Assembly (NCBI GenBank): GCA_020061585.1
Contig: JAGUXX010000310.1
Coordinates: forward strand, 1 to 42,780
Direction of reading: 5' to 3'
DNA length: 42,780 bases
Origin: Betaproteobacteria bacterium
GTDB lineage: Bacteria > Pseudomonadota > Gammaproteobacteria > Burkholderiales > Thiobacillaceae
The notes under the pieces were generated by a model that had not been told where the DNA came from, made no database searches, and worked only from the letters and a program-made list of their open reading frames with translations. The position numbers were made by a program, and so were the translations under genes. Below are positions 5,014 through 14,801 of this stretch, in pieces. Within the stretch, counting starts at the first letter, position 1, and the number at the start of each line of letters is the position of its first letter.

Positions 5014-5199
5014 ATGTCCGATGCAAAACCTGCAAAAAGCGCCGTCAAGACAGCCGCCACCAAGCCTGACGCCGTAGCCCCAGCCAAGAAAGCCGCCGCC
5101 AAGCCCGCCACCGCCCCAGCCAAGAAGGCCGCCGCCGCCAAGCCCGCCGCCGCACCGGCCAAGAAGGCACCAGCCGCCATGAAGGCCGCCAAGAAATAA
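5014..5199 (+). CDS. Histone H1-like Lys/Ala/Pro-rich protein
   Basis: A 61-residue, highly basic, low-complexity protein made of repeats of the form KPAxAPAKKAAA, with no aromatic residues. Such proteins resemble the C-terminal tail of histone H1, the chlamydial Hc proteins and the tail of Pseudomonas AlgP; they bind DNA non-specifically and are thought to help compact the nucleoid. The ATG at 5014 has a strong GAGGAG ribosome site 7 bases upstream, and the gene is closed by a hairpin terminator at 5225-5245, so it is a stand-alone unit. Repeats of AAGAAGGC/GCCCGCC codons probably make its length vary between strains. The exact role is unknown. Confidence 0.85.
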   Translation: MSDAKPAKSAVKTAATKPDAVAPAKKAAAKPATAPAKKAAAAKPAAAPAKKAPAAMKAAKK

Positions 5200-7939: not shown

Positions 7940-9520
7940 TCACTGCGCCGCCCACTCGGTCAACGCGGCCTGCGCCTTGGCGCCCGCCGCGGCATTGGCA
8001 TGATTGATCAACATCACCAGTATGCGTCGGCTGCCGTTCGGGCCGAGGACATAGCCGGCCAGACTGCGCACCCGGTTCAAGCTGCCGGTTTTGAGCCAGG
8101 CCGCGCCAACCATGGCACTACCGTTCATGCGCGTCTTCTGGGTACCTTCCAAACCCACCGCCGGCAAGCTGGCGGCGAACTCGAAATACGCCGGTCGCGC
8201 AGCGGCGTAAGCCAACAAGTCGGCCAACGACCACGCCGAGATGCGTTCGATACGTGACAACCCCGAGCCGTTTTCCAGCACCAGTTCGGGGATCTCCAGA
8301 CCGCGCTCCTCAAGCCAGGCGCGTACCGCCCGATCACCCTTGTTCCAGGTCGCCGGCGCTTCAAAGCGCTGGGCGCCGAGATTGAGATACAGCATCTTGG
8401 CCATGACATTGTTGCTGAACTTGTTGATGTCCCGCACCAGTTGCGCCAACGGCGGGGAGTCGAACTCCAACAACAAGGCCGGCGCCGCGCCTGGCGCGCG
8501 GTCTTCGCCTGACACAGACCTGACCTGACCACCGTGCAGCCCGCCCAACTCGCGCCAGACGGTGCCGAACAGCGCCGCCAGCGTGGCTTCGGGGCTCAGC
8601 AGATTGAGCGGGATACTCTGATCGCCGCAGGCAGCCGGGTAGGCGCCGGTCAAAACCAGGTTGTCACTGTCAGCTTGCCGTTCGATCTTCGCGCGCCAAC
8701 CATTGCAAGGCGCATCCGAGTTTTGCAATTGGTTGACCAAGGCCGGCGTGCTGGTGGGCGGATCGATACGCGGGGTGATCGAGCCTTCGGACATCGACAG
8801 GCGCAGATTGAGGGTATTGAAATTGACCAGCAACGCGCTCGGCGGCGCGTTGTAGGGTCGCAGCGGCGCCTGATCGAAAGCCGCCGGATCGATCGGGTCG
8901 AGCTGATAGTAGTGGTCATCCAGCAGCACGTCACCGCGAATGTCGCGCACGCCACGTTCGCGCAATTCGCGCAGCATCAGCCAGAAACGCTCCAGCGTCA
9001 GCGCCGGGTCACCGCCGCCTTGCAAAATCAGATTGCCGCTCAGCACGCCATCGGCGAGCGGGCCATCGGCATAGATTCGGGTCTTGAAGGTATGCGCCGG
9101 CCCCAAGGTATCCAACGCCGCCAGCGTGGTGACCAGTTTCATCACCGAGGCCGGGTTCAACGAGCGATGTTCGCCATGCGCGAGGCGTGGCAGCGGATTG
9201 CCGATCTCGCGCACCACAATGCCGACGTGACTATCGGGTATGCCGGCCTGGCGCAATGCCAGGGCGACCGTAGCAGGCAACTCAGCGTGCGCTTCGGCCG
9301 ATGCCAGCGCCAGCAGGGCAAGGCATGCCCAGCGGCGGGTTAGAGAGCCCCCGGCTCGAAACCCCGAGCCGCCCCCCAAGGGGGCCAAGTCGTTCTTGGG
9401 ACGGCCCGGCGAACGGCTTGTGAGCGAGCCCCCGGCTCGAAACCCCGAGCCGCCCCCCAAGGGCGCCAAGTCGTTCTTGGGACGGCCCGGCGAACGACTT
9501 GTGAGCGCCGTCAATTTCAC
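7940..9520 (-). CDS. dacB: D-alanyl-D-alanine carboxypeptidase/endopeptidase (PBP4, DacB) with a repeat-extended signal peptide
   Basis: A penicillin-binding protein of the PBP4/S13 family; these trim and cleave peptidoglycan cross-links in the periplasm. All three active-site motifs are present: SVMK (residues 125-128), SNN in KFSNNVMAK, and KTG in AWLKTGSLN. Without residues 6-59 the protein would be 472 long, the normal family size. Residues 6-59 are two near-identical 27-residue units (beginning [11 protein letters not shown]) encoded by a tandem 81-bp DNA repeat. They separate the first five residues from the hydrophobic signal core [19 protein letters not shown]. The start is GTG at 9520, overlapping the stop of the upstream epimerase gene as GTGA; no alternative start lies between the repeat and the signal core. 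Confidence 0.93.
9345..9506. repeat. Tandem 81-bp palindromic repeat, two copies
   Basis: Copies at 9345-9425 and 9426-9506 differ at only two bases (9381-9385 region and 9415-9416 region). Each holds the hairpin CGGCTCG/CGAGCCG (9433-9452 in copy 2) and, in copy 2, a 10-bp inverted repeat CAAGTCGTTC/GAACGACTTG (9467-9476 with 9492-9501). In copy 1 the latter carries one mismatch that can still form a G-U pair. The period of 81 keeps the dacB frame open. It looks like a REP/MITE-type dispersed element rather than native gene sequence. Confidence 0.9.
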
Positions 9521-10548
9521 CGCGTCAGGTCGCTGACGTACCAGTCCATCGCCTCGATCAGGCCGTCATTGATGCGATGGCTGGGCTCGTATCCCAGCAG
9601 CGTGCGCGCCTTGGTGATATCGGCCAGGGAATGACGCACATCGCCGGCGCGAAAGTCGCGGTAGCTTGGCTTGAAACCCTTGAGATGCGGAAAGCGCGGT
9701 TCCAGCGCCGCGCGTATCGCCTCGAACAGATCGTTCAAGGTGGTGCGATCGCCGACGGCAACGTTGTAGACCTGATTGGCGGCATCCGGGTGATGCGCCG
9801 TGGCGGCCAGCAGATTGGCCTGCACGGTATTGGCGATGTAGCAGAAATCGCGGCTGGTTTCGCCGTCGCCATTGATGTACACCGGTTGGTCATGAATCAT
9901 CGCCGAGGTCCATTTCGGCACCACGGCGGCGTAAGCGCCTTCCGGGTCCTGGTGCGCACCGAAAATATTGAAGTAGCGCAGGCCGATGGTTTTGAAACCG
10001 TAGGCGCGCGCGAACACATCGGCGTACTGCTCGTTGACCAGTTTGGTCACCGCGTAGGGCGACAGCGGTTTGCCGATCACATCCTCGACTTTCGGCAAAC
10101 CGGGATGATCGCCGTAAGTGGAACTGGAAGCGGCATAGACGAAGCGGCTCACCTTGGCATCGCGCGCCGCCACCAGCATGTTCAGAAATCCGTCGATGTT
10201 GGCGCCGTTGGTGGTGACCGGATCTTCCAACGAACGCGGCACCGAGCCAAGCGCGGCCTGATGCAGCACGTAATCGACGCCTTCGCAGGCTTCGCGACAA
10301 TCGTTGTGAACCCGGATATCGCCCTCGATGAAGCGGAATCGTTCCCACTGCTCAGACGTGACGACGTCCCGGATCTGATGCAGATTGTGCCGGTGGCCGG
10401 TGGCGAAATTGTCCAGCCCGACCACGTTCTGGTCGAGTTTGAGCAACTGTTCCAGCAGGTTGCAGCCGATGAAACCGGCAACGCCGGTTATCAGCCAGGT
10501 TTTCGGCTGGCTGGGCAAAGTGGCGAGTAGTTTGGTATAGGCGGTCAT
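9517..10548 (-). CDS. wbpP: UDP-N-acetylglucosamine 4-epimerase, WbpP/TviC-like
   Basis: A 343-residue extended short-chain dehydrogenase. Members interconvert UDP-GlcNAc and UDP-GalNAc, or their uronic acids, for O-antigen or capsule precursors. Visible are the NAD-binding GVAGFIG (residues 22-28), the [11 protein letters not shown] stretch typical of the WbpP/TviC branch, AASSSTYG, the catalytic YAVTK near residues 166-170, and [12 protein letters not shown]. The ATG at 10548 gives a short N-terminal helix before the Rossmann fold, as in WbpP. It lies 73 bases after the wbpO-like gene and overlaps dacB by GTGA. Distinguishing it from plain GalE rests on the longer N-terminus and the dehydrogenase partner. 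Confidence 0.88.
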
Positions 10549-14144: not shown

Positions 14145-14801
14145 TTACTTGGCGGCCGGAGCGGGAGCGGGGATGAAGCCGGCGAACGGGTTCGCGATGT
14201 TGCCGTAGGTGGCGGGATTCATCAGGCTACCCCAGGTACCGTAGGTAGCCGGGTTGGCGGCAGCGCCAGCCCACTGGGTGTAGAGGTTGGGGTTCAGCGG
14301 CGCCATCATCATGTTGACGTTGGCGGGAGCCAGAGGAGCCAGCGCCCAGTTGGCGTACATGTTGGGGTTCAGCGGCGCCATCATCATTTGCAGAACGCGC
14401 GGGTCCAGAGGAGCGGACAACCACTTCATGTACATGTTGGGGTTCAGCAGCGGAGCCATGGCGGCGGTGTAGAAGTTCGGGTCCAGGGAAGCAGCCAGCC
14501 ACTTGGTGTACATGTTGGGGTCGAGGAAGCCGGCGTAGGCTTTCAGGATGGCGGGGTCCATGCTGGCCTGGGCCATCTTGGTGAAGGTGGCGGGGTCCAT
14601 GCCCTTCTGCATCATGATGATGGCGGTAGCCGGGTCCATCAGATTGGTCATCGCGGCAACGGCAGCCTTGGGGTCTTGAGCGACTTCAGCAACCTTGGCG
14701 GGATCCAGCAATTGGGCAGCGGTGGATTCCGGGGTGGCGGCGGTCTGCGCGAACGCGGATTGGGCAATCAGGGCAAGAAACAAAGCGGAAAACTTTTTCA
14801 T
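14145..14801 (-). CDS. Exported protein made of tandem 12-13-residue NPNMYxxW repeats (unknown family)
   Basis: I do not recognise this family. The 218-residue protein has a clean signal peptide (MKKFSALFLALIAQSAFA, then QTAATPES). The remainder is about 12 tandem units of 12-13 residues: MDPATFTKMAQAS, LDPNMYTKWLAAS, LNPNMYMKWLSAP, LNPNMYANWALAP and so on. It ends in a Pro/Ala tail. Pairs of units form a 25-residue super-repeat, reflected in a 75-75-78 base spacing in the DNA. Almost no charge is present in the repeats, and Met, Pro, Tyr and Trp are strongly enriched. An AGGAG ribosome site and a strong terminator suggest high expression. It might be a cell-surface or periplasmic structural or adhesive protein (inference only). 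Confidence 0.85.
   Translation of the reverse strand: MKKFSALFLALIAQSAFAQTAATPESTAAQLLDPAKVAEVAQDPKAAVAAMTNLMDPATAIIMMQKGMDPATFTKMAQASMDPAILKAYAGFLDPNMYTKWLAASLDPNFYTAAMAPLLNPNMYMKWLSAPLDPRVLQMMMAPLNPNMYANWALAPLAPANVNMMMAPLNPNLYTQWAGAAANPATYGTWGSLMNPATYGNIANPFAGFIPAPAPAAK
14286..14523. repeat. 75-78-base internal direct repeats in the repeat-protein gene
   Basis: GTTGGGGTTC recurs at 14286, 14361 and 14436, and as GTTGGGGTCG at 14514, giving spacings of 75, 75 and 78 bases. The first two copies continue identically through AGCGGCGCCATCATCAT. The spacing is a multiple of three and matches the 25-26-residue protein super-repeat, pointing to fairly recent duplication. Confidence 0.85.

Follow-up and report, generated by a model that had tools for sequence, protein, structure and literature searches.

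The stretch of DNA analysed here (the window, 42,780 nucleotides) is contig JAGUXX010000310.1 of the assembly GCA_020061585.1 of a Betaproteobacteria bacterium, and it carries on the minus strand a dacB gene (7940..9520) with an unusual insertion close to its start. This open reading frame (ORF) encodes PBP4, a D-Ala-D-Ala carboxypeptidase of family S13, with 526 residues including a 54-residue insertion, and its protein matches Peptidase_S13 (Pfam PF02113, E 5e-89) over residues 84-526. The start codon, a GTG, and the stop codon of the upstream gene, a TGA, overlap as GTGA, as seen from the ORF and the junction sequence of that gene (9517..10548, minus strand), which supports the annotated start of dacB. 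Judging by its sequence, we take the upstream gene to encode a protein of the NAD-dependent epimerase type. Tandem Repeats Finder reported 2.0 copies with a period of 81 at positions 9345-9507 (97% matches, score 312). A start-proximal copy (9426..9506) and a second copy (9345..9425), both on the minus strand, of 81 bp or 27 codons and also recognised by a covariance model and by their sequence, are identical at 79 of 81 positions and thus differ at 2. They make up residues 6-59 of the protein as two in-frame units of 27 residues, with residue 5 before them and the hydrophobic signal core after. An initial annotation, made from the sequence without database searches, had already described two such in-frame copies between residue 5 and the signal core of dacB, a description borne out by Tandem Repeats Finder, the ORF and Pfam. 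Its coordinates needed a correction, as the exact edges of the repeat are ambiguous because CT is present at both sides.

The covariance model found the two dacB copies in the window with E values of 7.7e-19 and 2.4e-17, and its only other matches there (E 0.04 and 0.18) were the same palindromes on the opposite strand. These E values, together with further matches dispersed in the genome, indicate that the repeat is not a product of chance. The GC content of the two copies is 0.70 and 0.72. Sequence and the helix covariation of the family define two stems in the start-proximal copy, all arms being on the minus strand: stem 1, with the 5' arm CAAGTCGTTC (9492..9501) and the 3' arm GAACGACTTG (9467..9476), and stem 2, with the 5' arm GGCTCG (9446..9451) and the 3' arm CGAGCC (9434..9439).

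Matches to DacB were found in 22 of the 23 genomes of the same genus (none in G004), and most of the alignments start at residue 49-73 of the query. Those of G016 (residue 32) and G003 (residue 5, in an alignment interrupted by two TGA) reach slightly into the repeat region, and DacB of G020 and G021 aligns in pieces. The repeat peptide is absent from the DacB N-termini of 17 loci (16 distinct genes) of the genus, and a profile search of 23 other DacB loci (L038-L060) gave no significant copy of the repeat. Conservation of the 54 residues in the DacB of relatives, which the initial annotation had named as a finding that would speak against a mobile repeat, is therefore disfavoured. The sole match at a DacB locus elsewhere is weak and partial (E 0.044) and lies mid-gene in G020 (L057 and L059 are the same gene), whose DacB has an extra in-frame stretch in the middle of the protein at about L057:2196-2236. 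This stretch may be the degraded remnant of a copy of the element that entered the same gene elsewhere.

A dispersed repeat with two hairpins

The repeat found in dacB is an element with two covarying hairpins, dispersed in a Thiobacillus-like genus, occupying a given site in one or two species and missing from it in others, and often lying in frame in genes. Its usual form is about 87 bp long, with an 87-bp core in 17 of the 21 rows of the empty-site comparison, and the dacB copies represent an 81-bp short form. In an alignment of 32 copies (A1), stem 1 pairs CAAGTCGTTC with GAACGACTTG, with variants that include AAGTCAATC/GATTGACTT and AAGAAACTC/GAGTTTCTT, and stem 2 pairs GGCTCGG with CCGAGCC. 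The two helices are paired in 97.2% of the cells of the alignment, and 8 of their 17 pairs show changes on both sides; none of 500 shuffles was as high, and sliding the partners gave far lower values.

The genome-wide search for the 81-bp unit that had been proposed with the first description found it dispersed: a sequence search gave 6 matches in the genome carrying the window, one of them being the dacB pair, while 21 of the 61 genomes searched, that genome included, had at least one. With the covariance model, 20 of the 23 genomes of the genus had between 1 and 57 matches each, at least 301 in total and 7 in the genome of the window, all of them lower bounds, with at most 150 candidates scored per genome. 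Moreover, an exact pattern scan of a collection of species genomes gave 37 stretches, from assemblies labelled Betaproteobacteria, Hydrogenophilales, Gallionellaceae, Pseudomonadota, uncultured proteobacterium and, once, Thiobacillus denitrificans; the genus carrying the repeat appears to be Thiobacillus-like. Tandems occur elsewhere in the genus as two full copies in G022 (L061) and as one full plus one partial copy in G008 (L074). No Rfam family matched the window at gathering scores, and for eight loci searched at E up to 1 there was one match at chance level (E 0.98), outside the repeat. The main form of the repeat had no match among the plasmids or phages searched. On the side of the literature, GGGCCGCCCCAAG was found in no paper, and, in a literature mostly outside subscription journals, no report of this element in Thiobacillus was seen among the matches listed for Thiobacillus repeats, palindromes and in-frame insertion.

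Altogether, 109 distinct copies were collected by score or exact pattern, a set biased towards high scores and with a few copies from other genera. The left edge of the element reads CTCT and then CAAG (101 copies read), and the right edge shows the consensus CACAGCTAACC after GGGG, fading outward (77 copies read). Copies outside the intragenic class share this edge consensus.

Orthologous sites lacking the repeat were listed after dropping self-matched tandem copies, L091 (a site already in another locus), the window's own copies and L154 (unclear junction alignment). For hpnD, with 20 orthologues printed, the net gain is exactly 87 bp against 17 of them, and the remaining 3 have 15 extra bases there. 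Two sites are found in leuS. Site A, common to G008 and G009, has 20 orthologues without the repeat, with a net gain of 84 bp against 15 and of 69, 72, 72, 75 and 87 bp against the other five; site B, in G012, has 18 orthologues, with gains of 87 (14), 90 (2) and 93 bp (2), and all net differences at both sites are multiples of three. One empty sequence each was available for hemW (+84) and rph (+87), for yhdH and L093 (+84 in both, with relatives 75-81% identical) and for L131/L180 (+87/+105), the last two given with no coding status. In the checked cases the net gain is mostly 28 or 29 codons, and 54 codons for the dacB pair. The lengths of the orthologues also vary at the hpnD and leuS-A sites, which suggests that these insertion sites are tolerant loops. 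The empty sites read CTGACG in hpnD, CTGACC in hemW, CTTTCC at the L131 site and CTAACC in a spacer (L173), and the native sites of leuS-B vary, with CTCACC in one. From these sequences, the element would loosely favour sites similar to CT^NACC, CT being present on either side.

In-frame copies within genes

A copy was classed as in frame when a codon model trained on the long ORFs of the fetched loci gave the same best frame on both flanks and this frame was open throughout. In this way, 34 of the 104 assessable copies (5 further of the 109 having too little flank) were found in frame inside ORFs, a count that ranges from 27 to 37 with the score threshold; copies scoring on both sides in other frames or with a stop were 5 to 29, also depending on the threshold. 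Among copies of at least 50 bits with both ends readable, the length from CAAG to GGGG is divisible by three in 25/25 in-frame versus 34/44 other copies (p 0.011, in a partly circular comparison).

The 34 copies correspond to 33 ORFs, and Pfam was run on 28 of these, with a single member kept from each of five two-species pairs. A Pfam domain was found in 25 of the 28 ORFs, and in 8 of them the insert is within the aligned span of a single domain: AMP-binding (L082), Exo_endo_phos (L100), RNB (L085), SQS_PSY (L089), Anticodon_1 of LeuRS (L077), ABC_tran (L097), an APH-type phosphotransferase (L171) and FAD_binding_3 (L094, a weak copy). Pfam matches, a few of them below the curated cut-off, flank the insert on both sides in 13 further ORFs, with examples such as HemW, RNase PH, ParC, a histidine kinase (L160) and LeuRS at its second site (L164); in another of these 13, an Hda-lid protein, the upstream match is below the cut-off. 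The remaining scanned ORFs gave one-sided (L138, L076) or borderline (L083, L135) evidence, or no Pfam match (L093, L127, L070). LeuRS, HpnD, HemW, RNase PH and ParC were also recognised by NCBIfam above cut-off.

Five insertions are each common to two species (L164/L166, L092/L064, L073/L117, L115/L126 and L109/L095). Inside the element, these five give nonsynonymous and synonymous divergences (dN and dS) of 0.049 and 0.061, with a dN/dS of 0.79, on 22 changes, and the pooled flanking codons of the five genes (up to 250 upstream) give a dN of 0.051, a dS of 0.252 and a dN/dS of 0.20. Gene by gene, dN/dS is 0.10-0.27 downstream of the insert and, in four genes, 0.09-0.26 upstream. Small as the numbers are, they suggest that the host genes are still constrained after the insertion, and the inserted peptide hardly so. 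The synonymous divergence of the element is about a quarter of that of the flanking codons, and this slower nucleotide change could reflect constraint on the structure of the DNA or RNA, or gene conversion.

The six frames of 85 full-length copies are open in 83, 78 and 70 copies on the plus strand and in 12, 75 and 64 on the minus strand. Frame +0 is used by 25 of the 34 in-frame copies, or 20 of 29 when the five shared insertions are counted once, an excess with respect to an equal use of five frames (p 1.6e-8). CTNACC sites in the long ORFs of the fetched loci are in the +0 phase 47% of the time (p 0.015 against that value), and weighting this phase by the openness of the frames leads, by our own arithmetic, to about 62% of +0 expected versus 69% seen. 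Selection for a coding frame was consequently dropped, since the phase of the target sites and the stop codons explain the frame usage. In this regard, the initial annotation had advanced a mobile repeat that either tolerates or exploits its insertion into genes. Tolerance is supported by the dispersed copies, the empty orthologous sites and the in-frame insertions inside or between conserved domains; exploitation is not, given that target-site phase and stop-codon content fit the frames used.

A particular case was found in G022, where a copy of the element at the end of murE (L090:4320-4406, JAHFRD010000006.1) joins murE and murF in one open frame, which reaches 1035.7 with the NCBIfam model for bifunctional MurE/MurF (cut-off 1023). 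In all 21 other junctions printed the murE frame hits a stop before any join, and in 20 of them murF is in another frame than murE; the junction of G006 has a longer, different spacer, and there murF shares the frame of murE but is cut off from it by two stops. With respect to the closest empty sites (G011, G020 and G017) the net gain is 86 bp, which shifts murE into the frame of murF. As murF of G022 retains its own GTG with an AAGGA-type site, both a fused MurE-MurF and a separate MurF may be made. A natural MurE-MurF fusion occurs in Bordetella pertussis. It is conceivable, as a tentative idea against which we lean slightly, that core proteins of a single genus have been modified time and again by a hairpin element pre-adapted to coding through its usual length (a multiple of three), its five usually open frames and its linker-like peptide, an element also able to give rise to new proteins such as the MurE-MurF of G022. 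In that event, murE-murF would be a tangible example of how a mobile repeat can lead to fused genes.

Origin of the dacB insertion

In our opinion, the 162 bp inserted in dacB are very probably two head-to-tail copies of a non-autonomous palindromic mobile element, with a main form of about 87 bp and a short form of 81 bp, that is tolerated in proteins. Such an element would be moved in trans by an enzyme, preferring sites that resemble CT^NACC. In dacB, a single insertion would have been followed by tandem duplication, lengthening the n-region of the signal peptide, and export of the protein is assumed to be kept. Its persistence within genes would stem from usual lengths that are multiples of three, from five of the six frames being usually open, and from a main peptide that is hydrophilic, rich in G, S and P and linker-like, thus fitting tolerant loops.

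Diverse observations weigh against this interpretation. No mobilising enzyme was found, and the CT on both sides is possibly either a 2-bp target duplication or an end of the element, which makes the target-site duplication ambiguous. Some native sites, such as TTGGCG in rph and CTGGTN in most leuS-A orthologues, depart from CT^NACC, and DNA folds of the single window copies are only moderately better than those of shuffles (z -1.8 to -3.9). In the genome of the window, no copy outside dacB was classed as intragenic in frame, and the in-frame test is to some extent circular as regards length, given that an ORF can stay open in one frame only across a multiple of three. Moreover, the upstream flank of Hda shows a dN/dS of 0.42. 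To these points must be added the positive correlation between the number of copies and that of Y1_Tnp genes (Spearman 0.46, p 0.025), which keeps in play a REP-type repeat mobilised by a Y1 tyrosine transposase (RAYT), an origin that would agree with the hairpin architecture, the tandem copies and the occurrence of Y1_Tnp in 17 of the 23 genomes of the genus. We regard a RAYT origin as unlikely, however, because Y1_Tnp was not found in the genome of the window, in G021 (16 matches) or in G016 (6 matches), and G014 and G003 contain Y1_Tnp without matches to the repeat. Furthermore, the 48 of 58 listed Y1_Tnp places that were examined gave one weak element-like match (E 0.0022), and the feet of the hairpins in the A1 consensus, inspected by eye, show neither a GTAG nor a CGTC tag.

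A last point of this kind is that the dacB repeats contain four in-frame TTG codons (codons 18, 21, 45 and 48) as possible alternative starts. Should translation begin at a TTG of the second copy, the repeat would be untranslated and act as a 5' regulatory or neutral hairpin, and in the passage of PMC3733652 on N-terminal REPs its authors caution that these may be extragenic. To this explanation we give the same low likelihood as to a RAYT origin, since the GTG of dacB overlaps the upstream stop, no evident Shine-Dalgarno was seen by eye ahead of the TTGs, and the mid-gene copies elsewhere are necessarily translated if the protein is made. An assembly artefact or a chimera, an error that had been envisaged from the start, seems highly improbable: the genome is a draft of 336 contigs and a near-identical tandem of 162 bp is hard for short reads, but the copies are distinguished by two bases, neither the flanks nor the frame is broken, and other assemblies of the genus have tandems as well. 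Finally, two near-identical head-to-tail units could be expected from a local tandem duplication of native dacB coding sequence, with no mobile element involved. The unit nevertheless recurs throughout the genus in spacers and unrelated genes, with empty sites, and other dacB loci lack a significant copy, so that local duplication could explain only the step from one copy to two, and as a full explanation it is the least credible of all.

Two other repeats are present in the window. A 75-bp tandem of 2.2 copies (14286-14452) lies inside the ORF 14145-14801 (minus strand), whose protein shows a repeated MAPLNPNMY-type motif, and the covariance model of the dacB repeat gave no match to this tandem. 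GC-rich overlapping tandem arrays, mostly of 39 bp, occupy positions 5046-5190.

Known systems and the wider family

Among known systems, the GTAG and CGTC families of REPs include intragenic palindromes that encode 20-30 residues per dimer or group, and the part of PMC3733652 devoted to them mentions various species, including Thauera and Thioalkalivibrio, and targets such as tRNA synthetases. Our repeat resembles them in being an intragenic coding palindrome with tRNA synthetases among its targets, but it is a larger two-hairpin unit in which no tag was seen, and no REP-transposase neighbourhood was found for it at the 48 Y1_Tnp places.

Across the order, the covariance model, run with stricter filters, matched 11 of the 150 genomes sampled, and 8 of these 11 belong to other genera. 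The copies of this wider family that were inspected keep the loop CGCCGGGCCGYCCCAAG and the CCCCC/GGGGG pair and have other stems, some of them in tandem arrays of about 80-81 bp. Head-to-tail relatives with other stems in further families of the order (L244, L245, L247 and L250) lie mostly outside genes by a coding test that is rough because its codon model comes from the Thiobacillus-like genus. By this same rough test, wider-family copies had the same frame on both sides in 4 of 24 places, 3 of these being open. At the level of the class, the exact core pattern occurs in 2 of 369 sampled genomes, those of the window and G084, and plasmids of Acidovorax temperans and Rhodoferax antarcticus carry relatives of one G084 array. 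A relative on the R. antarcticus plasmid (L342:2501-2573, NZ_CP019241.1) is found wholly inside a gene annotated as a Fic family protein.

The beta-proteobacterial repeat element (BRE) is described, in the section that Hot et al. 2011 (PMC3110155) dedicate to it, as 75-91 bp long, with a GC content near 69% and arranged in head-to-tail tandem arrays, and both Rhodoferax and Acidovorax appear in the BRE table. Length and GC of our repeat (81 bp in dacB and mostly 87-bp cores, GC 0.70 and 0.72) fall within this description, and head-to-tail tandems are seen in the dacB pair, in L061 and L074 and in the arrays of the distant L244 and L245. On the other hand, that BRE section (PMC3110155) contains no frame, domain or empty-site analysis and does not describe an in-frame share, and its table lists no Thiobacillus. 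In view of the G084-array relatives on plasmids of genera from the BRE table, the repeat is probably a subfamily of BRE, a likeness by length, GC, tandem arrays and host genera and not by BRE sequence.

Rickettsia provides the best-known in-frame coding palindromes, and small populations could explain their tolerance there. The Rickettsia palindromic elements (RPEs; Ogata et al. 2000, 2002) are, as far as the corresponding passages of PMC2229807 and PMC10969869 go, short palindromes found in frame in unrelated conserved protein genes, with a conserved peptide, and tolerated there; the former source gives a length of 105-146 bp and 12-bp terminal inverted repeats. The dacB-type repeat, compared by description and not by sequence, shares the in-frame insertion in conserved protein genes, but belongs to another lineage, is shorter (81-87 versus 105-146 bp; PMC2229807) and has two internal hairpins, the ends of A1 being unpaired in the consensus fold. 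Terminal inverted repeats, a feature of RPEs and MITEs, are not evident in this fold, no dedicated search for them having been made. By analogy, the best reading is that the element would work like the RPEs, in this case in a high-GC genus outside Rickettsia in which insertions are numerous, sister species have the empty sites and the sequence around the insert is under purifying selection, so that the absorption of mobile DNA by proteins becomes directly testable with enzymes that have or lack the insert.
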